A stretch of DNA of 64,000 nt. Source: Xanthomarina arctica. Its GTDB lineage: Bacteria > Bacteroidota > Bacteroidia > Flavobacteriales > Flavobacteriaceae. The stretch spans positions 372,001 through 436,000 of the forward strand of contig NZ_BMFQ01000004.1 of assembly GCF_014638915.1 (NCBI RefSeq), read 5' to 3'. The first letter of the stretch is position 1, and every line of letters starts with the position of its first letter. Positions 15,913-42,455 of the stretch are shown here, in pieces. The notes under the pieces were generated by a model that saw only the letters and a program-made list of their open reading frames with translations, was not told where the DNA came from and did not search any database. Made by a program: the position numbers and the translations under genes.

Positions 15913-18900
15913 TTAATTGACTAAGACCTTTTTACTCACCACTCCAAATTCTGTTTGCAGCTTTATAATATAAGATCCAACACTTAGAGTTTTTGTTTTG
16001 ATTACCAAGTTTGCTTCCGTTTTAGAGTCTTCTATTTTGAAAATAGATTGTCCGATAATATTGAACATTTCTACAGATTTAATAGTCTTCAATTCTGGAT
16101 TTTGGATGGTGATGCTTTCATTCGTATTGACATATGATACTTGTAGAGAATTTGCTAATTCTATGGCTTCAACTCCCAAAGATTGGTTTGTAAATGTAAT
16201 TTCAAATCGATCCAAATAACTTCCAGCCTGTAAATAAATTGAATAATTTTCAACTCTTAAATCATGAATAAGACCTAATTCCTTATCATGGATATAAATG
16301 TTTAAAGTGCTTGGAACATTTTCTAAAATATCAATAGTAATATTATTTAAACCAGGATCTGATGTGTGTATTCCAATAGGTAATACGGTGTTTTCAGAAA
16401 TATTATCAATGCCTTGAATAATGTATTTTTCATTGTCAAGCATCCAATACATATCATCCATTTGGTTTTGATATAACAAACCATCAAATCCCCAATCGTA
16501 TTCTAAAGATGCTCTAGTGTCTTCAGTTAGCAATAACTGTCTATGAATGGTGTTGACAGAATTATAACCAAGACGTATTTTCATCCTGTTATCTTCGAAT
16601 TCTTCTTCAGTTGTTTCTTCGTTTTGCTCTTGTCTAATATAATTCGATAAAGTGCCTTCTTCTTTTACAAATCTTCTTTGTCCATTATTAAAATTAATAG
16701 TTCCTGTTCTTTTACCACTAACAAAGAAGCCTTGACCAACAGGAATAAAACGTCCGGGAGTTTTGGTTCCTGTTCCTACTTCTGCCACGTCAGGATTAAT
16801 GGTTCCCCAAGCAGCAGCACAAACACCTCCTGAAAAATTATAAGTAGCATAACCACCTTGATATTCGGATGATGAGTGAGAGCTTCCTCCCCAATGTTCC
16901 CAGAAATATAATGTACCATTAATTAACGGACTCGATTCTGAATTTCTTTCTATACCTGTAATATTGTCAACTTCTGGACCATTATCCAAAATAAACTGGT
17001 CTGCATCTATTGCCGAAGCATAAGGGTTACCAATTAAATAGTCGTTACCAGCGTTCAGGTTTAAAGTTAAAATATCGCCATTATTTGGCTTTCCTTGAAA
17101 TACATAGTTTTGCTCAAGAGTTAAATCGCCTTCAGTATTTTCTATGCCTTTCATAGTAAAACCTTCTCCAGCTTTAATGGTTCCCGTATTTCTTATATGT
17201 TGCCATGCCGAATAATCACTACTTGGTAAATTACCAAATTTCCATATCCAGTAATGTGCAATCCCAATTGGAGAGCCAGAGTTGCCATCATAACCTCCTA
17301 CAAAGGAAATGTTAGTTGGACTATCAGAATCTGTTCCATCTTTAACGATGTTATTATTTAACTTATAACTGTAATTATTAGGATATTCAGTGGTTGTAAA
17401 ACCTACTGGAGAAGACCAGTAATTGTAAGTAAAAAGGTCTTTTGTTCCTTGTTGATCTTTTTCAATTTTACCTGCACTTCCAACTAATAAACTACTTTCA
17501 GAACCTTGAACAAGTTGAGATTCGCCTTCAAGATCTATAAAGCCATTTAATTCCAAGTACCAACTAACGTTAAGTTCAGAATCATCATTTACGTGGTATT
17601 CAATAGGAGCAGAAGTAGCATCTAGTTCATCTATAAATAAGGCTAAATGGCCTTGATGTCCACTAAAGGAAACATCATTGTGTTTTACTTTTACAATGGA
17701 CCAATCATAGGTCACAACATCTTGTCCATGAACTCCATCTGCAAAGGAATCTACAGCGTCTGGTAAATTTCCACTTGAATGTGTTATAAAAGGCATTGGT
17801 GCAGTCTGGTTATCTATAAGTTTTGCATTATACAATTTAGCACCTGTACCAGAGTCGTAGTCTGGAGTTGTTAAGTCATCAACTATATCACCTTTAAAGA
17901 CGTCCATACGGTAATAACGCATTAAGGAAGGCCAGAGAATTGGGTCTATATAGGACGTACTGATAAAGTTTGCTATATCTTTTGGTACAACACTACCACG
18001 AACAACGCCATAATTATTTTCAATTTCCTGATACACCATTTTCTGAATTTCATTCTCAGATAATGTTTTGTTGAAAACACGAACTTCATCTATAAATCCT
18101 TTAAAGTATTTGTCAGTGTTGTTATCAGCTTGCTTCCCGATTCTAAAATTAAAAGGATTAGATTCTAAAAAGCTTCCAGCACCGAAAGTGCTAGATAGTT
18201 TCTCTCCATTGACATATAAAGTGATTTCTTCATCTTCTCCATTAAAAGAAGCAACAACGTGGTACCATTGGTTGGAGTTTATTGGATGACTATTCAAATC
18301 ATTTTGTGCACCAATATTGTTGGCTATTGCACGAATATAATAGTTGCCAGCAGATGGCTCAATCATAATCTTTAGATTTTCTTGTCCAAAAATAACCGCA
18401 CTTCCATTTAGAAATGATGGGTCAATTTTTATCCATCCCATGATTGTGGCATTCGTTCTGCCACTCAGTAATTCTGAATCTTCAATATAATCATTTCGAC
18501 CATCGAAATATAAATTTAATTTTCTGTCTAAATCACGTGGAGACCCAAAACGTTCATCATCGGTGTCGAACAAATCTAAAATACCATCTTTATCTGTATC
18601 GGTATTATAATTTTCGCCTCCAATAGATCCGTTAGCGTTTGTGTCTAAACTAGCATAAAGAGTTTGACTGATATCATAAGTGTTTCCATTTGATGTGGTA
18701 TCCATATAGTCTGGGATACCATCAGAATCGGAATCCACCACAAAATAAGTAGATCCTAAGCCTTGATTTGAATTACCAAATGCGGTTTCAAATGTGGATC
18801 CTGTGTTATAATCGTAAATATCAAGGATTCCATCAGCGAATAGTTCATGGATACCATCAGAATCAACATCTTTTTTACGTGCATAATCTGTATCTAAGCC

Positions 18901-21234
18901 ATCACCAACACCATCTCCATTTATATCACCATCTCCATTTTCAAAATTCAAATCTGCAGAATTTCCAGCTTTGGATTCATCAACGTCAAAAATAGTATCA
19001 TTATCACTATCAAGATCTAAGTAATTAGGAGTACTGTCGTTATCTGAATTCAAAATTGTAAAACCTTCAGCCAAGTCATGCATCCCATTAGCATTCAAGT
19101 CAATCCAGCCAGACGTATTTGTTAAGGTTGCAGTTCCTTCACTTAAATTGCCTAATCCAGCTTCAACAACATCAGGAATTCCGTCATTGTCAGAATCTAA
19201 ATCAAATATATCAGCAATGCCATCACTATCTGTGTCACATAATGTTTGAATAATGGTTATGTCGTCTATAGCCAAGTTGTTTCCAATACCTCCAGGAGTA
19301 TTATTAATAAATCTAACAATAAATGAGTTTACATCACCTAAATTAACGTTTGTACTAAATTCTTGCCATTCTCCTTGAATACATGTGTTATCTGTTGTGC
19401 TAACAGAGCATCTTCCTAAGGGAGTGGTATTATAAGTTGATAAGATATTTTCATTTAAATCTAAAAATTGAACGGTAATATCTGGTAAATCGGAACCCGA
19501 GAAACTAGATTGAGACATAATGTTTAATGCATAGAAGCTGTAGGAAATTGGAAAATTTGATAAAATGCCAGTTATGGTTGCTTCATAGAAAACTCCTGGA
19601 GTATCACTCGCGCTAAAAACGGCCATTCTTCCATTGATGTCATTAGGAGTATGATCTTCCCCATTGTACCAAGCCAAATCCCCATGTATGTTTTCTGGAT
19701 CACTGGCTTGGGTTCCTGTAATTTTTGAAACCACTGTATACTCGCCATGATCTAAAATCCATGAAGATTGATTTGGGCATTCTGGTGTATTCGTGCCAAT
19801 AAGACCATCTTCATAGCAGTAACTCGTATTTGCAGTATTATTGTTTATTGTTGCTCTACCTGTACCAACACCAAAAGTTTCATTTAGAAATTTATAATTA
19901 ACACTGTTTCCTCCTGCATTACCACAATTTTGTTGTTCAGCAGAATCCATAATACCATCATTGTCATCATCTATATCCACATGATCGAGAATGCCATCTC
20001 CATCACTATCATAGAAATATTGAATGGTAGTTCCTTGAATTAGGAATGTGTAGGTAGGTTCGTCTGAGTCATTACTAAAAACACTCACTAATGATGTTTT
20101 TTTTCCAAATTCTAAGGAATTATATGCAACGCTAAACGCACTAGAATCACCTCCTGAAATGGGGGTGTTAGAAGGAGGTCCTGTTATTGTGAAATTTTCG
20201 GAATTGGAAACTGTAATTTCTGAGATAATTAAATCGGCCGTACCTTCTGAATTGTCTATAGAGAAGGTATGTTCTTTTGTGCTTCCTAAGTCTACTAATC
20301 CAAAATTAGTAGCATCTATAAAATCTGGTGTAAGATCTCCATTCACTATTAAAGTGTTATCATGTCCTAAAATCTTAATTTCAGGGGCTGTAGCCATGCT
20401 TTGAATATGAATATCATCTATGGCCATATCACTTTTAAAATCAGAACCTATAAGACCTCTAAATCTTAATTTAATGATTTGCCCTGAATATGCAACTAAA
20501 CTTAAGTTTGCATCTTCCCATGGATCATCATTTGCTGTTTGAACTTGACCAGATTGAGTCCAGATATTTGTGTAGCTTGTCCCATTATTAGTACTGATAT
20601 CTACATTAAGTATTCCCATGTTTACTCCGTACATATGGTAAGAAAATGAAATCTCTGGAAAAGAAACGGTGCTCAAGTCAATACAAGGGCTCTCTAAATT
20701 TGATGTTTGATTGATGTTCCCTGATGCTTCTGCGTAAACATACCAAGAGCCACTTTTAGCTAATTCTGGTCCTGTAAAATATGAAGTTGTACTATTCATA
20801 TTTCTATCCCAATCAAATTCATCGGAATTATCTTGTGTCCAACCTCCAAAACCTGATTCAAAAGATTGCGTGTATGGAAAAGAGTTTATGGTCGTAGTGC
20901 AGTCATTTGTAGCAAAAGAACTTAAATCCATAATTTGGTTGTCTGGATTTAAGGTGTCACCAGAAGTTCCACTCCAATAGGTAACTTGCGTTGTGGATTT
21001 TTTCCATCCACGTTTATGAAATGGATCGATATCAATGGATAAAGAACTCCCTAGGATGAAAGCGTGATTATTATCTGATAGAATCCTATTCGTTTTTCTT
21101 GAGTTATTTTTAAGTGTAAATACTTTTTCTAAAGCGACAGCCGAGATCGTTTCAGATCGGGAAAAGGTGTTAATACAGAATATTAATCCAACAATAAGAA
21201 TAGTGTACCTGATGGTATACCTTAAGTTTTTCAT
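15913..21234 (-). CDS. Giant T9SS-secreted multidomain protein with MAM-like, thrombospondin type 3 and LamG-like domains
   Basis: A 1773-residue surface or extracellular protein. A signal peptide (residues 1 to about 30, core TILIVGLIFCINTF) directs export. Next come a MAM-like domain (about 112-280), a choice-of-anchor D-like domain (about 284-405), a first calcium-binding DxDxDG repeat block (about 408-432), a second jellyroll-like region, a long thrombospondin type 3 array rich in DSDGDGIPD-type loops (about 665-900), and a concanavalin A/LamG-like domain with FDGRNDYIED and WYHVVASFNG (about 910-1085). The region after that is less defined. The last 80 or so residues, with VEMFNIIGQSIFKI and ending GVVSKKVLVN, form a type A sorting domain for the type IX secretion system. 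It probably binds glycans or mediates adhesion; a catalytic role is not visible. Confidence 0.88.
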   Translation of the reverse strand: MKNLRYTIRYTILIVGLIFCINTFSRSETISAVALEKVFTLKNNSRKTNRILSDNNHAFILGSSLSIDIDPFHKRGWKKSTTQVTYWSGTSGDTLNPDNQIMDLSSFATNDCTTTINSFPYTQSFESGFGGWTQDNSDEFDWDRNMNSTTSYFTGPELAKSGSWYVYAEASGNINQTSNLESPCIDLSTVSFPEISFSYHMYGVNMGILNVDISTNNGTSYTNIWTQSGQVQTANDDPWEDANLSLVAYSGQIIKLRFRGLIGSDFKSDMAIDDIHIQSMATAPEIKILGHDNTLIVNGDLTPDFIDATNFGLVDLGSTKEHTFSIDNSEGTADLIISEITVSNSENFTITGPPSNTPISGGDSSAFSVAYNSLEFGKKTSLVSVFSNDSDEPTYTFLIQGTTIQYFYDSDGDGILDHVDIDDDNDGIMDSAEQQNCGNAGGNSVNYKFLNETFGVGTGRATINNNTANTSYCYEDGLIGTNTPECPNQSSWILDHGEYTVVSKITGTQASDPENIHGDLAWYNGEDHTPNDINGRMAVFSASDTPGVFYEATITGILSNFPISYSFYALNIMSQSSFSGSDLPDITVQFLDLNENILSTYNTTPLGRCSVSTTDNTCIQGEWQEFSTNVNLGDVNSFIVRFINNTPGGIGNNLAIDDITIIQTLCDTDSDGIADIFDLDSDNDGIPDVVEAGLGNLSEGTATLTNTSGWIDLNANGMHDLAEGFTILNSDNDSTPNYLDLDSDNDTIFDVDESKAGNSADLNFENGDGDINGDGVGDGLDTDYARKKDVDSDGIHELFADGILDIYDYNTGSTFETAFGNSNQGLGSTYFVVDSDSDGIPDYMDTTSNGNTYDISQTLYASLDTNANGSIGGENYNTDTDKDGILDLFDTDDERFGSPRDLDRKLNLYFDGRNDYIEDSELLSGRTNATIMGWIKIDPSFLNGSAVIFGQENLKIMIEPSAGNYYIRAIANNIGAQNDLNSHPINSNQWYHVVASFNGEDEEITLYVNGEKLSSTFGAGSFLESNPFNFRIGKQADNNTDKYFKGFIDEVRVFNKTLSENEIQKMVYQEIENNYGVVRGSVVPKDIANFISTSYIDPILWPSLMRYYRMDVFKGDIVDDLTTPDYDSGTGAKLYNAKLIDNQTAPMPFITHSSGNLPDAVDSFADGVHGQDVVTYDWSIVKVKHNDVSFSGHQGHLALFIDELDATSAPIEYHVNDDSELNVSWYLELNGFIDLEGESQLVQGSESSLLVGSAGKIEKDQQGTKDLFTYNYWSSPVGFTTTEYPNNYSYKLNNNIVKDGTDSDSPTNISFVGGYDGNSGSPIGIAHYWIWKFGNLPSSDYSAWQHIRNTGTIKAGEGFTMKGIENTEGDLTLEQNYVFQGKPNNGDILTLNLNAGNDYLIGNPYASAIDADQFILDNGPEVDNITGIERNSESSPLINGTLYFWEHWGGSSHSSSEYQGGYATYNFSGGVCAAAWGTINPDVAEVGTGTKTPGRFIPVGQGFFVSGKRTGTINFNNGQRRFVKEEGTLSNYIRQEQNEETTEEEFEDNRMKIRLGYNSVNTIHRQLLLTEDTRASLEYDWGFDGLLYQNQMDDMYWMLDNEKYIIQGIDNISENTVLPIGIHTSDPGLNNITIDILENVPSTLNIYIHDKELGLIHDLRVENYSIYLQAGSYLDRFEITFTNQSLGVEAIELANSLQVSYVNTNESITIQNPELKTIKSVEMFNIIGQSIFKIEDSKTEANLVIKTKTLSVGSYIIKLQTEFGVVSKKVLVN

Positions 21235-35695: not shown

Positions 35696-36268
35696 TTAGA
35701 ATCTATAAATAACTTCAGCACTGTTTTGAATATAATTTTTTAGATAAATCCATTCATTGAAGCCCCATTTACCCATAGTTTGAATTCTAAAACCAATGTT
35801 GTTTTCTAACCAAAATTGGAAACCAAATCCAAAATCAAAAGTAGCAGTATTATAACTGGCAACACTGGTATAACCAAGTCCAGAGATTAAGTACCCTTGA
35901 AACCAATTTAACTGATACGTAGGCATAAATAACTGATCATAATAAAATTTGGCAGTGGCGTCTATAGCGAATAAGGTTTCATCTTTACTTAAATAACCAC
36001 CATTTTGTAAATTAGAACTTTCCAAGCCATTTAAAGTCAAAGAGACATTAGCTGCAAGTAACTCAGAAAAACGTCTTTCTGCTCCAATGGTAAAAGGATT
36101 TTTGAAATTCCAATTTCCTGTATCAAAAGGTTTATCAAATTGAAAACCATCATTGTCTACTACATTGATACCAGCACTAATGGTCCAAGGCACATCTGTA
36201 ACAGCACCATATTGGCTGAAACCGTAAGTGCTAATTAAAAGGCAAATTGATAGGGCTAATTTATTCAT
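35696..36268 (-). CDS. Predicted outer-membrane beta-barrel protein
   Basis: A 190-residue exported protein with a signal peptide cleaved near YGFSQ. The mature sequence alternates polar and aromatic or hydrophobic residues (for example NPFTIGAERRFSELLAANVSL and FDFGFGFQFWLENNIGFRIQ) and ends in RF, with a terminal aromatic residue as in outer-membrane barrels; eight strands would fit its size. It resembles OmpA-type or porin-like small barrels in this phylum without matching one I can name. It lies 79 bp downstream of the nucleotidyltransferase gene and may belong to the same transcript. Confidence 0.65.
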   Translation of the reverse strand: MNKLALSICLLISTYGFSQYGAVTDVPWTISAGINVVDNDGFQFDKPFDTGNWNFKNPFTIGAERRFSELLAANVSLTLNGLESSNLQNGGYLSKDETLFAIDATAKFYYDQLFMPTYQLNWFQGYLISGLGYTSVASYNTATFDFGFGFQFWLENNIGFRIQTMGKWGFNEWIYLKNYIQNSAEVIYRF

Positions 36269-36347: not shown

Positions 36348-37412
36348 TTAGAATTTTGATATTTTTAATAGTTTGAATATACGGTTATAATCAGCAAGAA
36401 CAGCTTTTCTATATTCCTTATTAATTATAAACATATAGATCCTTTGAAATAAAACCTTTAGAAAGCTTAATTTATTTAAAACATAGTCAATTAAATGGGA
36501 TAGCTTAGTATGCTCAAATTTATATTTTAGATAGTATAATTTTAAACTATTTTTTTTAAAAATCTGTGGTTCAATTTCATCAAAAAACAGGGATAGCAAT
36601 TGAAAATAGTTTTTTGAATATTTATTGTTTATTTCGTCTAAAACACAAATTTCAGGATGTCTATTTAAAATTGTTAAGCTATCAAAGGCACTCCTAAATC
36701 CTATTTTTGAAAAATAGTAACCCTTATCATTAATTTGCCAATTCAAGACACTATGTTGTAATAAATGAATGTTCGAAGGAATAAAAACTTTATTAATTAA
36801 CTGCTTTGATTCTAAGATTGAATTAGGCATCAATAAGCTTGTGTTTTTACTATTAAACAAGCGTCTATGTATTTCCACCGCAGCTAAACCCGACTTAGGA
36901 ATTAAACGTGGTAAGTGTTTATGATCAGTGTATTGATGTAAAGGAGATTCTTGAGCCGCTTCAAAATTAGCATTAAGTAACAATTGATAAGCTGTATGCA
37001 TATCTTTGGAATCTACTAATATATCTATATCTCCAATCATTCTTTCTCCTAAATCAGAATAATAGGCTCCAGCTAATAAAGCAGTTCCTTTTAGAAAAAC
37101 GTGATTTATATGATGGGTTTGAAATAGATTACTGATATTATTAACATCGTTAAGAATTGAGGTATTCCTATTTCTGTTGATACTTGTTATTTCATTAAGG
37201 TATTCTTTAAGGTCTAAGGGTAAGACATGTAAAAGCGATTTTTGATCTAATCGGGTATAAATTGTGGGTAAAACTAAATGACGGCTTGCATATTTTACAA
37301 GTGTTTCCCAATCGAATAAGGGATTGGATAATAATTTTTTTAATTGAATAGGATCGTTCTTATAGCTCAAAATAGATGCAATAACTTTAAGAGTATGATA
37401 ATAGGAGACCAT
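36348..37412 (-). CDS. PF14907-type nucleotidyltransferase-like protein of the kinase/peptide cassette
   Basis: A 354-residue soluble protein of the uncharacterised nucleotidyltransferase family (NTP_transf_5). The nucleotidyltransferase core is seen around residues 100-140: HVFLKGTALLAGAYYSD supplies the glycine-rich helix and GDIDILV the metal-binding aspartate pair. The rest is mainly helical and unassigned. I chose the ATG at 37412 over an in-frame TTG at 37421. It lies 41 bp after the HPr-kinase-like gene. Related proteins are encoded with HPr-kinase-like proteins in some lasso-peptide and exosortase/EPS loci, where their reaction is not established. Function here is inferred from family and neighbours. 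Confidence 0.8.
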   Translation of the reverse strand: MVSYYHTLKVIASILSYKNDPIQLKKLLSNPLFDWETLVKYASRHLVLPTIYTRLDQKSLLHVLPLDLKEYLNEITSINRNRNTSILNDVNNISNLFQTHHINHVFLKGTALLAGAYYSDLGERMIGDIDILVDSKDMHTAYQLLLNANFEAAQESPLHQYTDHKHLPRLIPKSGLAAVEIHRRLFNSKNTSLLMPNSILESKQLINKVFIPSNIHLLQHSVLNWQINDKGYYFSKIGFRSAFDSLTILNRHPEICVLDEINNKYSKNYFQLLSLFFDEIEPQIFKKNSLKLYYLKYKFEHTKLSHLIDYVLNKLSFLKVLFQRIYMFIINKEYRKAVLADYNRIFKLLKISKF

Positions 37413-37453
37413 ATTATTCAATTTAATTTTGCTCTAATGAGTCAAAAAGGATT

Positions 37454-38584
37454 TTATTCGTCAATTAGACTTTTAATTTTTAACACGACAGAATTGGAGT
37501 CACTGTAAGTTAATTTATAAAAATGACAGGTTTCTAACCAATCAAGAAAATAAGCAGCATTTTCGGCGATAGGAGAAAGCCAGGAATCAGGTATTAAAAT
37601 GTTTAAAATCTCTTCAGCACTTATAATATCCAATTTGGTTTCAGCCTCAGGACTATACGCAACTAAAATTATTTTGTTACAGGAGATAGGTTCTTCAATG
37701 GTGTTAATTGGGCTAACATATTTAAGATCTCCTTTTTTAATATGAGACAAAGAATTAGCTTTAAATTCAATCTTTTCAGAAAGAGAATCTAATAATCGAA
37801 ATGAGCCATTTTTCATTGAAATGGCGGAAGGGTAGGGATTGATTTTTTGAGATTTTGCCAATATAGGCGTAAAATCATCTGCAATTAAATTAAAGCCATT
37901 TGCCATTAATAAGGTAGCCAAAGTGCTTTTTCCTTTACCCGATTCCCCAACTAACATAATAGCTTCTTTACTATTAGATATGGTAGAAGCATGAAATGTT
38001 CCAAGCCAATCATCTTCAATTGTGTGGGTCAAACCGCATAATAACTCCATGGCAAATTTGCCTTGAAGCAAATGATAATCACTTTGGTTATAGGTTCCTA
38101 AATGAATTTTGTTTTTAAATAAGTGTAACGTCTCATTGTTGTTTTTTATGTAAAAGGTGAAATTAGATCTTAGATTCGGGTCTTTAAGTTCTAAATAAGA
38201 AAATTGTGGGTGAATTATGTCCTTCTCGAATTGAGATTGATAACACACTTTTATTACTAAATCTTTAATTTTATAAAATACAGAGATATAATTTGTGTCT
38301 GAAAACCCTGTAAATTCTATAGTATTCAGATCAGATTGGACAACATTTAATGAGTTCAAAAGCTGTTCAAATTCCGAATATAATTTGTTAGATAAAGTAG
38401 ATGGAAAATTATCTAAGGTGTTTATAAAAAAATGAAATTCGCTATCATCTTTGCTTTTAATAAAACTAGATAATAGCGAATAATTCAAATCATTTAAGAG
38501 AATATACTTATTTGAGTTTTTAAACCATAAAATAGTAACTCCATGAATTTCACGAATTAAGGATGGAGCTAATGACAATTTCAA
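37454..38584 (-). CDS. HPr-kinase-like P-loop protein with a PqqD-like N-terminal region
   Basis: A 376-residue protein. The C-terminal half resembles the catalytic domain of HPr kinase/phosphorylase: P-loop GESGKGKST (Gly213 to Thr221), followed by a DD pair in NLIADDFTPIL (about 235-240). The first 82 residues (YILLNDLNYSLLSSFIKS and a helical segment to LLNSLN) look like a degenerate PqqD-type peptide-binding fold, by pattern only. Neither HPr nor other PTS genes are near, so the target is unlikely to be HPr; the preceding 63-residue protein is the obvious candidate. The start is a TTG two bases after that gene's stop, so translation is coupled. HprK-related kinases with PqqD partners and a nucleotidyltransferase are known from EPS and lasso-peptide loci. 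Confidence 0.78.
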   Translation of the reverse strand: MKLSLAPSLIREIHGVTILWFKNSNKYILLNDLNYSLLSSFIKSKDDSEFHFFINTLDNFPSTLSNKLYSEFEQLLNSLNVVQSDLNTIEFTGFSDTNYISVFYKIKDLVIKVCYQSQFEKDIIHPQFSYLELKDPNLRSNFTFYIKNNNETLHLFKNKIHLGTYNQSDYHLLQGKFAMELLCGLTHTIEDDWLGTFHASTISNSKEAIMLVGESGKGKSTLATLLMANGFNLIADDFTPILAKSQKINPYPSAISMKNGSFRLLDSLSEKIEFKANSLSHIKKGDLKYVSPINTIEEPISCNKIILVAYSPEAETKLDIISAEEILNILIPDSWLSPIAENAAYFLDWLETCHFYKLTYSDSNSVVLKIKSLIDE

Positions 38585-38586
38585 AA

Positions 38587-38778
38587 CTAGTTAGTTTCAA
38601 AAACATCCTCAGGACCTTCTTGTTGCACTCTATTACCTGGGTCTGGAGGTGAAGACGCATGTGCTTTTTTAGGACTTAATATAAAAAAGGTACCCACAGC
38701 TGTTATTGCGGCGTATTTACCCATTTTCTTTAGCGCTTCGTTACGCGTTATTTGATTTTTTGAAGAGTCTTTATTCAT
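38587..38778 (-). CDS. Small exported protein, candidate substrate of the HPr-kinase-like protein
   Basis: A 63-residue protein with a clear export signal: charged N-terminus (TRNEALKKMGKY, mildly reminiscent of a Tat motif but with one arginine), a hydrophobic core at residues 22-34 (YAAITAVGTFFIL) and an AHA cleavage site after residue 41. The mature peptide would be 22 residues starting with SSPPDPG and ending in VFETN; it is acidic, Pro-rich, without cysteines, and has two serines and one threonine that could be phosphorylated. It is the first gene of the cassette, two bases before the kinase-like gene. A precursor peptide role is an inference; a simple small secreted protein is possible. 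Confidence 0.7.
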   Translation of the reverse strand: MNKDSSKNQITRNEALKKMGKYAAITAVGTFFILSPKKAHASSPPDPGNRVQQEGPEDVFETN

Positions 38779-38861
38779 ATTGCAAATATAAAAATCATTT
38801 ATATATAATTACCTTTATGTGCCAATAGATTGTTTAAAACAATAATTAGCAATTTAATGAA

Positions 38862-38903
38862 CCTCTTATAAATTATCATAAGGTTTGAATAATTTATAAG
38901 AGG
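38862..38903 (-). terminator. Stem-loop between the 1180-residue T9SS gene and the small exported protein gene
   Basis: A perfect 14-bp inverted repeat (CCTCTTATAAATTA and its complement) with a 14-base loop lies about ten bases past the T9SS gene stop. The 3' flank on the minus strand is only partly T-rich, so it may attenuate rather than fully end transcription into the cassette. Confidence 0.6.
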
Positions 38904-38912
38904 CTTTAAATA

Positions 38913-41900
38913 TTATCTAATAATTACTTTTTGATTTTTTGTTAATGATTTATTCGATATTGAAACAGCATAGATTCCAGTTGCTAATGTGGATACGTCA
39001 ATTTGATTATTTGAACTTCCAGATTCTAAACTGGAGCTTAATACCAAGCGACCTTGCATATCATATACTTTAACTAAAGTAGTGTCTGTCAAGTTTCCTT
39101 TAATAAAAATAGCTTTAGGTGTTGCAGTAGCAAAAACATGAATGCTATTAAAAGCGACTTCTTCAATAGATAAGGCAGATTCTGCAAATCTTAAAAAGAA
39201 ACGCCCAGTTCCGGTAATATTAGATGTTGGTGTCAATGTATAATTGCCTTCGTTTAATAAGGTTACTGTATTAGCTACCATATCTTCTAAATACACATTT
39301 GTAGATTCTGGTAAACTCGATTCTAAAATGCTAAAAGTTAATTCTTGTCCTTGAGGTGCACGTACTCCTAATGGGATGGTAACATCAGCATAATCTAAAT
39401 AACCTAAAGATTGAATTGCAATAGCATTTCCAGTATTATCTTCAACTAATTGAGAATATATAGAGAATGCAGGAGCACTTCCTCCAAAGACATTAGAATC
39501 GTAACCTGGATCAAGTCCTAAAGTAGCATTATTAGTAAAATAGAAATCTGTTTTATATAGTTTATCTGTACTACTCAATTCAAGTTTTAAATGTTCAATT
39601 GGTTCTGTAGCCATTCTTCCTGGAATAAAATCATCTGTAGTCCCTATAGAGCGCATACTAGGGCTGAAAGAAATAGTTCCTCCACCTGTTTTTGAAGCTA
39701 CTAGGAAACCTTGACCAGGTGCCATAACTGCGGCAGGATTTGCATCAGAATATGCTTGATTCCAGATATTCCAGCCATCTGAAGCATTACCATCATATCC
39801 GTAAACACCCGAACTAACTGTTTCAAATTCTGAATTGTTAGAGGCTAAAAAATCAGATAACGAGATATAAGATGGATAAGGATTACCCACTAAATTCCAT
39901 TCCGGATTATAAGGTCCTGCAATTACAATAGGCACATTAACATTACCTGTATTAACAATACCTGTAAAGTTTAAATTTAAATTATCGTTTGTTGCGGCTC
40001 TATAACCAGTACCTGGCGCTAAAACTACCGATTCGTCCGAAGGGATACTTGTATCATAAGTTAAATACAAACCTGTTACTTTATCGAAAGGTCCAAATAA
40101 TTTTCGAGTTGGAGTGGCAGGGTATGAATATAAATTAGGATTATTGTTTGCTAACTCTCCAAAAGTTTGACCAGTAACAGGTGCTGAAATTAAATCGTTA
40201 TTGCCAGCATATGAATTTACATGTCTGTTATAAGTTACAGCTCCAGTAGATTTTCCTTCAACAATTAAGCTAGAGTAACTGTTAGAAATGGAATTTAATT
40301 CTAATAATCCGTCTGTAAACAAATCGGAATTTAATTTAATGGATTGACTATTAGATACAGAAACAGTAGCGCCATTTGCAATAACTAGATTATTTAATTC
40401 AATATTAGTACCTACATTGTAAGTACCATCCTTTACAAAGGCATTTTCCAACCCTGTTGAATTAGTGGGTGGATAAGGTGTCCATGCACTGTTCGTGTAT
40501 AACAAGCCATCAAAAACACTTACCACTTTAAAATTATCAAATCCTGAATAGCCATCTGTTCCGTTGTTACTTACTCTAATCTGCAACGCGACTGTTTCAA
40601 CTGAATCAGGAATATCTAAGATAATGGTTTCAGCATCCTCCTCAACAGGACCGTTACCATCAAGTAAAAATACCCAACCTTGACTTATACCATCATAAAA
40701 AAGTTCATATTGTGCATCGTCACCATTATCGACATACCCAATAATTTGCCAGTCAAATTGTACAGTAACATTGTTAAAGCTACTTATGTCAACATCGGCA
40801 AAAGTAATAGTAGCAAATCCACTAGTTCCATTATCAATTTCATCGTATAAATCATTTTCGCCTAAAATATTATTGGTAAAAGAAGGGTAGTTTAATGGAG
40901 CTGCATCAGCGATATCGATAATTCCATAATATCCATCAGTACCCCAACCATTATCAAAAAATGGGGTATCATGGGTATAAGTCCATTCTGGCGAAGGAAG
41001 GTCAAAATCTTGCATAGCAATTGTAATTAGTGGACCCAATACATTAAAAGTATCACTAACTACAAACCCCAATCCACCTGATCCAAAAGCAAATAAATTT
41101 ATATCTGTTTCTGTTTCATTGAAAATTAAAGTATTTAATGTGGCAACACCTCCTAATATGGTGTAATCTATGGGAGCTCCATTTAAAGATCCCGCAGATA
41201 GAATGGAAACAGTACCTGTACCATCTAAATCAAAATTATTATTTATATCAACAGCATGGATGATAGGAAAAGGTGTCATTATTTCAAACTGATTAACATC
41301 TGTAGGTTGTGTTGTGAAAATTAACTGAGAAGCTACAACTTCTAGACGATTATCATCACCAATAATTAATGTTTGAGCCCCTCCTGCATCCGATAACTCG
41401 AATGTGGAGCCATTAACGCCATCGGGTATCGCACTACTAACTGTCAGTTGAAATTGTTCATTGTCCGTAATACTAGTTCCAAATGTGGCGTAAACATCAA
41501 AAGTTTTAGAACCATTGTCTGGTGCCAATAATCCAGTTCCACCATTAATCCCATTAAAGGTTATGGTTGTCCCAACAGAAGTTACTTCGCCCACATTTGT
41601 AGCACCATCAAATATGGAAATGGCTGCAAAATTACTTGAACCAGCTACTTGGAAAGATAAATCCTCAAGAATGGTTGGCAAAGCATCGGCATCCATTAAA
41701 TCATTTCCTCCATCTTGTATTGTAAATTCACCAATCTTTAAAGCATTGGAAACAGTTAATCCAGAGGGTGCATCATATAGTAAGTAATCTATGTCATCCA
41801 TTGGGTCAAAACTTATGGAAGAAATGATGTTAGACTCAGCACTATTGATGGAAGCGGGTGTAATATTTCCTGTTAATCTTATGCCAGGTTGACTTATTCC

Positions 41901-42455
41901 AAATTCAGACCATGTTGGAGAACTTTTTATACGAAGCCATCCCTGATTAGTATTGGCATTCCATGCATATAATCGAAAAGTTATGGTCCCTGAATTTCCT
42001 GAATTAATACTTAATCCATTTAAATTATATACAATACTATTGTTTTCTGGCATTGCTACTGGGCTATTAATAGCAGTCCCAGCAGTTGCAAAACCATTGG
42101 TGCTATAGAAGAGTTGCCAAACTTTAGGCCCGTCGGTATTTCGTCTAAGGTGCATGTCCACTTCAGTTAATTCTACTTCAAAGTTTGTGTTTGCCTTCAC
42201 AGACCATTGCAAATAATCATTGTTTGTCTGGGCTGTAGCTTGTGATACTCCACTCCAACTTATTGTAGTATGATCAGTACCCACACGTCTAATTACGCCT
42301 GTTCCTCTTGTTATACCAATAGAAGAAATTGAGGCTGCATTACCAGTAGCGGTTGGAACAGCAATATTTGCACGATCTACAGTTACAATTGGACTTTGCC
42401 CATAAGTTAAGAGGCTGAAAGTAATTGAAACTAAAAGTAAGTAAATTTTTTTCAT
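38913..42455 (-). CDS. Large T9SS-secreted protein of 1180 residues
   Basis: A secreted or surface protein. A signal peptide (IYLLLVSITFSLLTYG) ends before QSPIVTV. Several beta-sandwich segments follow, with no catalytic motif that I recognise: an N-terminal region of lectin or adhesin type to about residue 200, Ig-like segments to about 470, and a jellyroll-like region with SSFNNVTVQFDWQIIGY and LQIRVSNNG around 550-640. Beyond that, repeats typical of T9SS-anchored proteins lead to NPEWNLVGNPYPSYISLSDF. The C-terminus (VKVYDMQGRLVLSS and IYAVSISNKSLTKNQKVIIR) is a type A T9SS sorting domain. It is divergent from the EPS operon. Function is unknown; adhesion or matrix binding is likely. Confidence 0.85.
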   Translation of the reverse strand: MKKIYLLLVSITFSLLTYGQSPIVTVDRANIAVPTATGNAASISSIGITRGTGVIRRVGTDHTTISWSGVSQATAQTNNDYLQWSVKANTNFEVELTEVDMHLRRNTDGPKVWQLFYSTNGFATAGTAINSPVAMPENNSIVYNLNGLSINSGNSGTITFRLYAWNANTNQGWLRIKSSPTWSEFGISQPGIRLTGNITPASINSAESNIISSISFDPMDDIDYLLYDAPSGLTVSNALKIGEFTIQDGGNDLMDADALPTILEDLSFQVAGSSNFAAISIFDGATNVGEVTSVGTTITFNGINGGTGLLAPDNGSKTFDVYATFGTSITDNEQFQLTVSSAIPDGVNGSTFELSDAGGAQTLIIGDDNRLEVVASQLIFTTQPTDVNQFEIMTPFPIIHAVDINNNFDLDGTGTVSILSAGSLNGAPIDYTILGGVATLNTLIFNETETDINLFAFGSGGLGFVVSDTFNVLGPLITIAMQDFDLPSPEWTYTHDTPFFDNGWGTDGYYGIIDIADAAPLNYPSFTNNILGENDLYDEIDNGTSGFATITFADVDISSFNNVTVQFDWQIIGYVDNGDDAQYELFYDGISQGWVFLLDGNGPVEEDAETIILDIPDSVETVALQIRVSNNGTDGYSGFDNFKVVSVFDGLLYTNSAWTPYPPTNSTGLENAFVKDGTYNVGTNIELNNLVIANGATVSVSNSQSIKLNSDLFTDGLLELNSISNSYSSLIVEGKSTGAVTYNRHVNSYAGNNDLISAPVTGQTFGELANNNPNLYSYPATPTRKLFGPFDKVTGLYLTYDTSIPSDESVVLAPGTGYRAATNDNLNLNFTGIVNTGNVNVPIVIAGPYNPEWNLVGNPYPSYISLSDFLASNNSEFETVSSGVYGYDGNASDGWNIWNQAYSDANPAAVMAPGQGFLVASKTGGGTISFSPSMRSIGTTDDFIPGRMATEPIEHLKLELSSTDKLYKTDFYFTNNATLGLDPGYDSNVFGGSAPAFSIYSQLVEDNTGNAIAIQSLGYLDYADVTIPLGVRAPQGQELTFSILESSLPESTNVYLEDMVANTVTLLNEGNYTLTPTSNITGTGRFFLRFAESALSIEEVAFNSIHVFATATPKAIFIKGNLTDTTLVKVYDMQGRLVLSSSLESGSSNNQIDVSTLATGIYAVSISNKSLTKNQKVIIR

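Follow-up and report, generated by a model that had tools for sequence, protein, structure and literature searches.

A predicted peptide-tailoring gene unit linked to a class of type IX secretion surface proteins in Flavobacteriaceae

Relationship to described systems

Pairs of an HprK-related kinase and a nucleotidyltransferase are widespread. Those of the Pseudomonadota that carry the NCBI name HPr-rel-A consist of a kinase (TIGR04352), a chaperone of the PqqD family (TIGR04353) and a nucleotidyltransferase. We know of no HPr-rel-A substrate. Our literature search, in which few subscription papers and preprints were covered, found no study of HPr-rel-A and, outside lasso peptide loci, no substrate for pairs of this kind. 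In lasso peptide loci, similar enzymes, such as the kinases PadeK and ThcoK and the pair PsmK-PsmN, are tailoring enzymes. In this study, a related set of genes was analyzed in a 64,000-nucleotide (nt) stretch of the genome of Xanthomarina arctica (contig NZ_BMFQ01000004.1, positions 372,001 to 436,000; hereafter the window). It encodes a small exported peptide, a kinase with a predicted recognition element (RRE) for ribosomally synthesized and post-translationally modified peptides (RiPPs), and a PF14907 enzyme, and it follows a gene for a surface protein of the type IX secretion system (T9SS). The best reading of the system is a divergent relative of HPr-rel-A and not a lasso peptide locus. 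With moderate confidence, we regard it as a system that tailors a peptide for use with a class of T9SS surface proteins. Its enzyme chemistry is of the known HPr-rel-A and lasso-tailoring kind; new is the combination of the RRE-kinase fusion with an exported peptide that is tied to a T9SS protein class. The features, with positions counted from the first letter of the window, are:

38913-42455, minus strand: T9SS surface protein gene, upstream of the peptide gene; 1180 amino acid residues, TIGR04183 at residues 1117-1180, with a type A-like sorting domain at the end
Residues about 701-1180 of the 1180 in this T9SS protein: C-terminal module of about 480 residues that ends in the type A-like sorting domain
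38587-38778, minus strand: precursor peptide gene, 63 residues, ATG start, contains KKAHASSPPDPG; leader ITRNEALKKMGKYAAITAVGTFFILSPKKAHA, followed by SSPPDPG..., with Ser43 near-invariant in the family
37454-38584, minus strand: RRE-kinase fusion gene, 376 residues, TTG start; residues 1-80 RRE/PqqD-like (predicted), residues about 137-372 HprK-like kinase
36348-37421, minus strand: gene for a PF14907 enzyme of nucleotidyltransferase fold, 357 residues, TTG start, with the intact motif K111 G112 ... D131 x D133, E183

Similar to HPr-rel-A, this locus encodes a kinase of the same family, as TIGR04352 was matched by all 26 kinase relatives (best E-value 1.4e-23), and a PqqD/RRE unit. Also similar is a gene of a nucleotidyltransferase family beside the kinase gene, found on a Sphingomonas plasmid and represented here by the PF14907 gene, which adjoins the kinase gene in 24 of 28 loci, the window not counted. 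Different from HPr-rel-A, the window kinase scored only 82.6 bits against TIGR04352 (HprK_rel_A; 2.5e-23 in the NCBIfam profile search), which is below the cut-off of 200. Moreover, the predicted RRE is fused to the kinase, with no separate PqqD gene (TIGR04353) in the window unit, and the peptide is tied to T9SS surface proteins.

Similar to the lasso tailoring pairs, the system combines an HprK-like kinase with conserved His, Lys, Asp, and Asp residues, a nucleotidyltransferase-like second enzyme and a peptide Ser as the presumed target. In addition, the RRE-like domain resembles the lasso B1 protein TbiB1. In pseudomycoidin, the nucleotidyltransferase homolog PsmN is described as adding one or two hexoses to the phosphoserine made by PsmK (PMC8498205, PMC9266682). 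The His-Lys-Asp-Asp motif is reported in a review to be essential in the lasso kinases (PMC9266682), and by analogy the four residues of the fusion kinase may correspond to it. Different from the lasso systems, the Ser lies just after the leader, whereas the substrate Ser of lasso kinases is C-terminal, and the peptide has an export signal and a T9SS partner. The initial annotation had seen no lasso genes nearby. Consistent with that, the family of the lasso B2 leader peptidase (PF13471) was found in none of five genomes searched, the window genome included. No Asn-synthetase-like cyclase was recognized by eye among the window open reading frames (ORFs) of at least 120 residues, at which no profile search for such a cyclase was aimed. 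Because the B2 family was absent and the Ser was not C-terminal, a lasso peptide locus was rejected.

The gene unit, its surface-protein partner and co-inheritance

The three genes form a real, conserved unit. They lie on the minus strand in the order that the initial annotation had given, the peptide and kinase genes being two bases apart, and the identities that it had proposed for the kinase-like P-loop protein and the PF14907 protein were borne out by profile searches, the kinase scoring below curated cut-offs. In the Pfam search, the window kinase matched HPr_kinase_C (PF07475) at 5.8e-6 with 26.4 bits, below the gathering score of 33.3, and the third protein was a clear NTP_transf_5 (PF14907) at 1.4e-34 with 120.3 bits against a cut-off of 31.2. 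The compact cassette described earlier is indeed a conserved unit, but a larger one than claimed, with the T9SS gene upstream and, in close relatives, a barrel gene downstream. The usual order in Flavobacteriaceae is the T9SS gene, the peptide gene, the RRE-kinase fusion gene and the PF14907 gene, followed in some by the barrel gene.

Residues H198, G213, S215, G216, G218, K219, D236, and D237 were invariant in all 29 kinases, and PF07475 was matched by 25 of the 26 kinase relatives at E ≤ 1 (best 1.9e-8). An AlphaFold2 model of the kinase built from 26 sequences had a pLDDT of 89.3, and Foldseek matched the whole chain to PEPCK and HPr kinase. The first 95 residues, modeled alone with a pLDDT of 87.5, had the topology b-b-b-a-a-a, i.e., three strands and then three helices. 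Ranks 1 to 7 of the 213 Foldseek matches of this domain were RiPP enzymes, with TM-scores by query of 0.52–0.62. They were TbiB1 with leader peptide (five chains), another lasso B1 protein and one sactipeptide enzyme, which we take to hold an RRE. PqqD was not listed among the full Pfam and NCBIfam matches of the window kinase. A Methylobacterium plasmid protein of similar length, however, carried a recognizable PqqD domain (5.9e-11) fused in front of the same kinase. The N-terminus of the kinase is predicted from these models to be a leader-binding RRE domain. In genome G040 (loci L030 and L049), the kinase was split over two frames with two matches side by side, which is a frameshift or a sequencing error. 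PF14907 was matched by all 25 relatives of the third protein, and K111, G112, D131, D133, and E183 were invariant in PF14907 members.

The 63-residue protein had no Pfam or NCBIfam match at E ≤ 1, and for its 26 relatives the NCBIfam matches were weak and scattered, four in all with a single member each, the best (E = 0.035) being to a small family of targets of the twin-arginine translocation (Tat) system. M1, R12, A15, T26, A27, L34, P36, and S43 were invariant in the 26 aligned relatives, whose tails varied more than their leaders. The Ser was found in 122 of 123 distinct variants, seven residues past the conserved Pro and just behind an A-x-A-like site, the exception being a Tyr; 120 of 121 were counted by script, and two peptides outside the script pattern were read by eye. 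The Ser was not part of KYAAxTAxGT, the pattern with which the peptides had been searched for. After a five-residue c-region, the tail was 10–14 residues long in 95 of 121 peptides and exactly 12 in 53, and that of the window peptide was longer, at 22 residues. An aromatic residue followed behind the Ser in 110 of the 121, and common C-termini were PFD, SGF, and GWD. The leaders were Tat-like but with R-K or R-N, most having T/S-R-K. A canonical Tat signal was rejected, as RR occurred in 0 of 121 peptides. TatC was encoded in all seven genomes searched.

The kinase was present in 29 of 299 genomes of the same family, the window genome included (E ≤ 1e-8). Of the other 28 loci, 22 contain a small-protein gene, and one more (L046) has a copy with an in-frame stop. 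Gene clustering across the 29 loci showed that 24 of them encode a large protein that carries a T9SS sorting domain. Over the 299 genomes, the kinase was found in 29, the peptide in 32 and the C-terminal module, at E ≤ 1e-60, in 33; all three were found in 27 genomes and none in 263. The hypergeometric p-value for kinase with peptide was 5.5e-34, and the p-values were about 1e-33 overall, with relatedness ignored. In a sample of 395 genomes of the phylum, five had the peptide, and exactly these five had a kinase match over the full length (E < 1e-120), while the other 94 genomes listed had a far weaker match (best 8.9e-16), over the P-loop part in those displayed. The initial annotation had proposed conserved co-occurrence as a check on its idea, and the idea survived, the phylum sample (the same 5 of 395) agreeing with the family.

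The co-occurrence does not depend on adjacency. In genomes G383 and G597, the kinase/PF14907 pair stands apart and six peptide genes each lie elsewhere in the genome. For 11 of these 12, the gene immediately upstream is a T9SS gene resembling that of the window, and for the twelfth it is another peptide gene. In G123, two peptide genes are hundreds of kb from the kinase gene. The kinase occurred without the peptide in G048, whose contig begins inside the kinase gene, and the peptide without the module in G067, G136, and G295.

The small-protein alignment was also scanned against 84,980 named species genomes and found 412 relatives, the best 80 of which were kept and gave 79 loci. The genera among these best 80 of 412 included Xanthomarina, Hanstruepera, Psychroserpens, Winogradskyella, Gelidibacter, and Lutibacter. 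A T9SS-domain gene was upstream on the same strand, within 1.5 kb, of 81 of the 85 peptide genes in the 79 loci, with a median gap of 114 nt. The kinase gene was within 1.5 kb downstream of 68 of the 85, its start lying at a median of 14 nt past the peptide stop. Ten extra loci have a peptide gene outside the kinase loci; in four of them it lies behind a T9SS gene of the class, and two loci are truncated by a contig start. Three of the lone peptide genes (L093-L095) are from small genomes of 1.1–1.5 Mb, have tails like PPGPPGWD or PQEPGGWD and have no adjoining T9SS gene. These loci share the same neighbors, e.g., a gene for a protein of about 140 residues that starts TKLTPFHLAIPVD; L093 begins at a contig start. 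Upstream of another lone peptide gene (L090:80-2003), five near-identical ORFs of 119 residues were found in tandem on the plus strand.

Among described T9SS cargo, type A proteins are attached to anionic lipopolysaccharide (A-LPS) by PorU, and type B cargo is described as having a PorP/SprF partner instead. A review states that PorU can join cargo to A-LPS via a seryl amine, or to short peptides (PMC10202324). Similar to type A cargo, the partner proteins in this study end in a type A-like sorting domain. That of the window partner scored 39.9 bits against TIGR04183 (cut-off 23) and 41.8 bits against PF18962 (cut-off 27), and PF18962 was above its cut-off in five of seven partner proteins scanned. 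Different from ordinary type A cargo, the partners come with the module of about 480 residues, the peptide and the enzymes. After those shorter than 500 residues had been dropped, 113 of 124 other partner proteins were kept; residues 701-1180 of the window protein were covered by 108–113 of them and residues 1-450 by 24–28. The bodies of the partners differ, with YDG, LTD, or HYR domains over cut-off in three others. In 80 family genomes, the module profile gave a clear separation: the best match in a system-free genome was 1.6e-44 and the weakest in a genome with part of the system was 2.3e-58. At most five candidates per genome were scored with the module profile, so that module counts are lower bounds.

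The sorting domains of the partners also form their own group. In a tree, one split with a support of 0.755 contained all 95 partnered domains and 2 of 60 unpartnered ones, and for a stricter one (support 0.93) the counts were 80 of the 95 and none of the 60. The 60 unpartnered domains were a selection from two genomes (40 from G000 and 20 from G383), and the 95 partnered ones were left after identical tails among 97 had been merged. Loss of the PNP motif was tried as a marker of the partnered domains, since the motif was present in 0 of 97 partnered domains vs. 39 of 40 unpartnered ones, which were mostly strong TIGR04183 matches. This marker was dropped, however, because 18 of 20 low-scoring unpartnered domains were also without PNP. 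In the window genome itself, 83 sorting-domain matches were found, along with a single peptide gene and a single strong match to the module. A second T9SS-type protein of 1773 residues is encoded at 15913-21234 of the window on the minus strand (TIGR04183, 1.8e-6). It has a distantly similar C-terminal region and no peptide gene.

Proposed function and its alternatives

From these features we infer the following steps. The small gene would encode a precursor whose conserved leader also serves as an export signal and is followed by a tail, usually of 10–14 residues, that begins with the near-invariant Ser. The N-terminal RRE-like domain of the kinase would bind the leader, and the HprK-type kinase would phosphorylate the Ser in the cytoplasm. 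The PF14907 enzyme might then add either a hexose or a nucleotidyl group to this phosphoserine. Export would remove the leader at the A-x-A-like site and free the modified peptide, which would work in trans with the surface proteins that bear the module and sorting domain. The initial annotation had already suggested that a kinase and a nucleotidyltransferase-like enzyme act on a small exported peptide. Co-inheritance speaks for that part; the class of T9SS partners and the RRE-like domain had been missed.

Several results weigh against these proposed steps. The PF14907 gene is not beside the kinase gene in 4 of the 28 loci outside the window. The peptide was found without the kinase in G136, G275, G283, and G295, all of which except G295 are less than 90% complete, and the module without the peptide in G048, G066, G121, and G292. 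In four of the extra loci (L090, L094, L095, and L098), the peptide gene is not behind a T9SS gene of the class. No Foldseek match of the predicted RRE domain reached E = 0.001 (E 0.04–0.33, the best 0.04), and the 25 Pfam families listed as matching the 26 kinase relatives most often did not include PqqD. Only 25 of 121 tails have a single Ser/Thr, most holding further ones. Finally, several genomes combine a single peptide gene with multiple module genes, at least six in G045, at least five in G157 and three each in G097, G261, and G069. A strict one-to-one pairing of peptide and surface protein was therefore rejected, and because several genomes have more module than peptide genes, the peptide would act in trans.

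The final role of the peptide is perhaps that of a surface-attachment linker. In one specific form of this idea, the free N-terminal amine of the exported peptide would be the acceptor in a PorU-type transpeptidation that cuts the sorting domain off the module proteins, and a phospho-linked sugar at the Ser would tie the product to a surface glycan. The peptide would then be equivalent to the seryl-sugar linker in A-LPS but reserved for a single class of cargo. This form draws on the separate sorting-domain group of the partners and is doubtful.

Among the alternatives to peptide tailoring for T9SS proteins, the one that survives best, though still unlikely, is that the two enzymes have another substrate, either a precursor of a surface glycan or the T9SS protein prior to export, the small protein being an unmodified adaptor or chaperone. 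Foldseek gave an HprK/PEPCK fold, kinases of this fold accept varied substrates, and nucleotide-sugar genes are nearby in a minority of loci (9 and 7 of 29 for clusters c6 and c11, respectively). Speaking against an adaptor are the near-invariant Ser at one position of an otherwise variable tail and the RRE-like domain of the kinase. Moreover, in lasso loci, as far as the sources cited above describe them, the same enzyme pair modifies a peptide Ser.

Scarcely different in probability, and ranked just after it, is a free secreted RiPP, i.e., a signal or an antibacterial, with the T9SS protein as a receptor, carrier or immunity-like partner and not as the target. A short Pro/Gly-rich tail behind a conserved leader, an RRE-like domain and tailoring enzymes are indeed RiPP-like, the tails are more variable than the leaders, and some peptide genes stand alone (L093-L095 and L098). 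Against this, 81 of the 85 peptide genes follow a T9SS gene, and in an otherwise variable partner the roughly 480 residues of the module are conserved, which would be unusual for an immunity or carrier role. In addition, no recurring dedicated transporter or protease gene was found in the clusters of at least 3 of the 29 loci, as named by eye from the first 90 residues. Finally, a chance linkage of the genes, which would then move as an adhesin cassette and share no function, would fit the patchy occurrence of the unit in about one tenth of the family genomes but is very improbable, because the genes are inherited together even where they lie apart (G383, G597, and G123) and because of the p-value for kinase with peptide, which carries no correction for relatedness.

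A likely substrate of an HprK-related kinase and nucleotidyltransferase pair is visible here, as a short peptide with one near-invariant Ser in cultured marine genera (e.g., Winogradskyella, Psychroserpens, Gelidibacter, and Xanthomarina). Peptide tailoring would also be linked to the type IX system, which raises the question of how one class of T9SS proteins reaches the surface or stays on it. The system points to an undescribed way of decorating or fixing cell-surface proteins in one family of mostly marine bacteria; our literature search found no description of it and no link between peptide tailoring and the type IX system.

Neighboring features and related plasmid loci

Three further features were located next to these genes:

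38860-38905, minus strand: inverted repeat between the T9SS and peptide genes, 17-nt arms with one mismatch (16 matched pairs), possible terminator
38783-38790, minus strand: TAnnTTTG element (TATATTTG), putative promoter element of the peptide gene
35696-36268, minus strand: outer-membrane beta-barrel gene, 190 residues, TIGR04565 at 34 bits (below the cut-off of 60), an optional part of the unit

The upstream analysis kept gaps of 40–250 nt between the T9SS and peptide genes (n = 50) and dropped the others. In 39 of the 50 gaps, TAnnTTTG, which we take to be the -7 promoter element of Bacteroidota, lay no more than 60 nt from the start of the peptide gene, vs. 3.5 expected from shuffles; this enrichment suggests that the peptide gene has its own promoter. 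That a hairpin upstream of the peptide gene is an attenuator throughout the family was rejected, as stems of at least 11 were found in 8 of the 50 gaps (1.6 expected). The barrel genes (cluster c3) were found in 13 of the 29 loci, and in 12 of these they come immediately after the PF14907 gene in the same orientation.

A special tie to an exopolysaccharide (EPS) locus, which the initial annotation had drawn from the neighborhood in the window, was not supported, and the link is weak. A flippase cluster (c12) recurred in 4 and a glycosyltransferase cluster (c19) in 3 of the 29 loci, in close relatives only, and an EPS locus was rejected as a general partner because EPS-type neighbors recur in only 3–4 of the 29. 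The clusters c6 and c11, named by eye as epimerase-like and nucleotide-sugar-dehydrogenase-like, respectively, lie near the unit on the far side of the T9SS gene. They may have to do with an activated sugar for the system, or simply with EPS loci.

A tblastn search found kinase relatives in 18 plasmid records, eight of which were opened. Five of seven plasmid loci examined have, upstream of the kinase gene, a gene for a protein with a twin-arginine-like N-terminus (71, 91, 94, 177, and 274 residues), and two show none. These five loci (L234-L237 and L239) are from Pseudomonadota, and three of the upstream proteins are small (71–94 residues) and without PLSDB annotation. The upstream proteins are possibly unrecognized substrates of HPr-rel-A. 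That an exported protein is the substrate of HPr-rel-A kinases is a fair general hypothesis from this small sample. One of the opened plasmid loci was a lasso-type cluster with a B2 gene.

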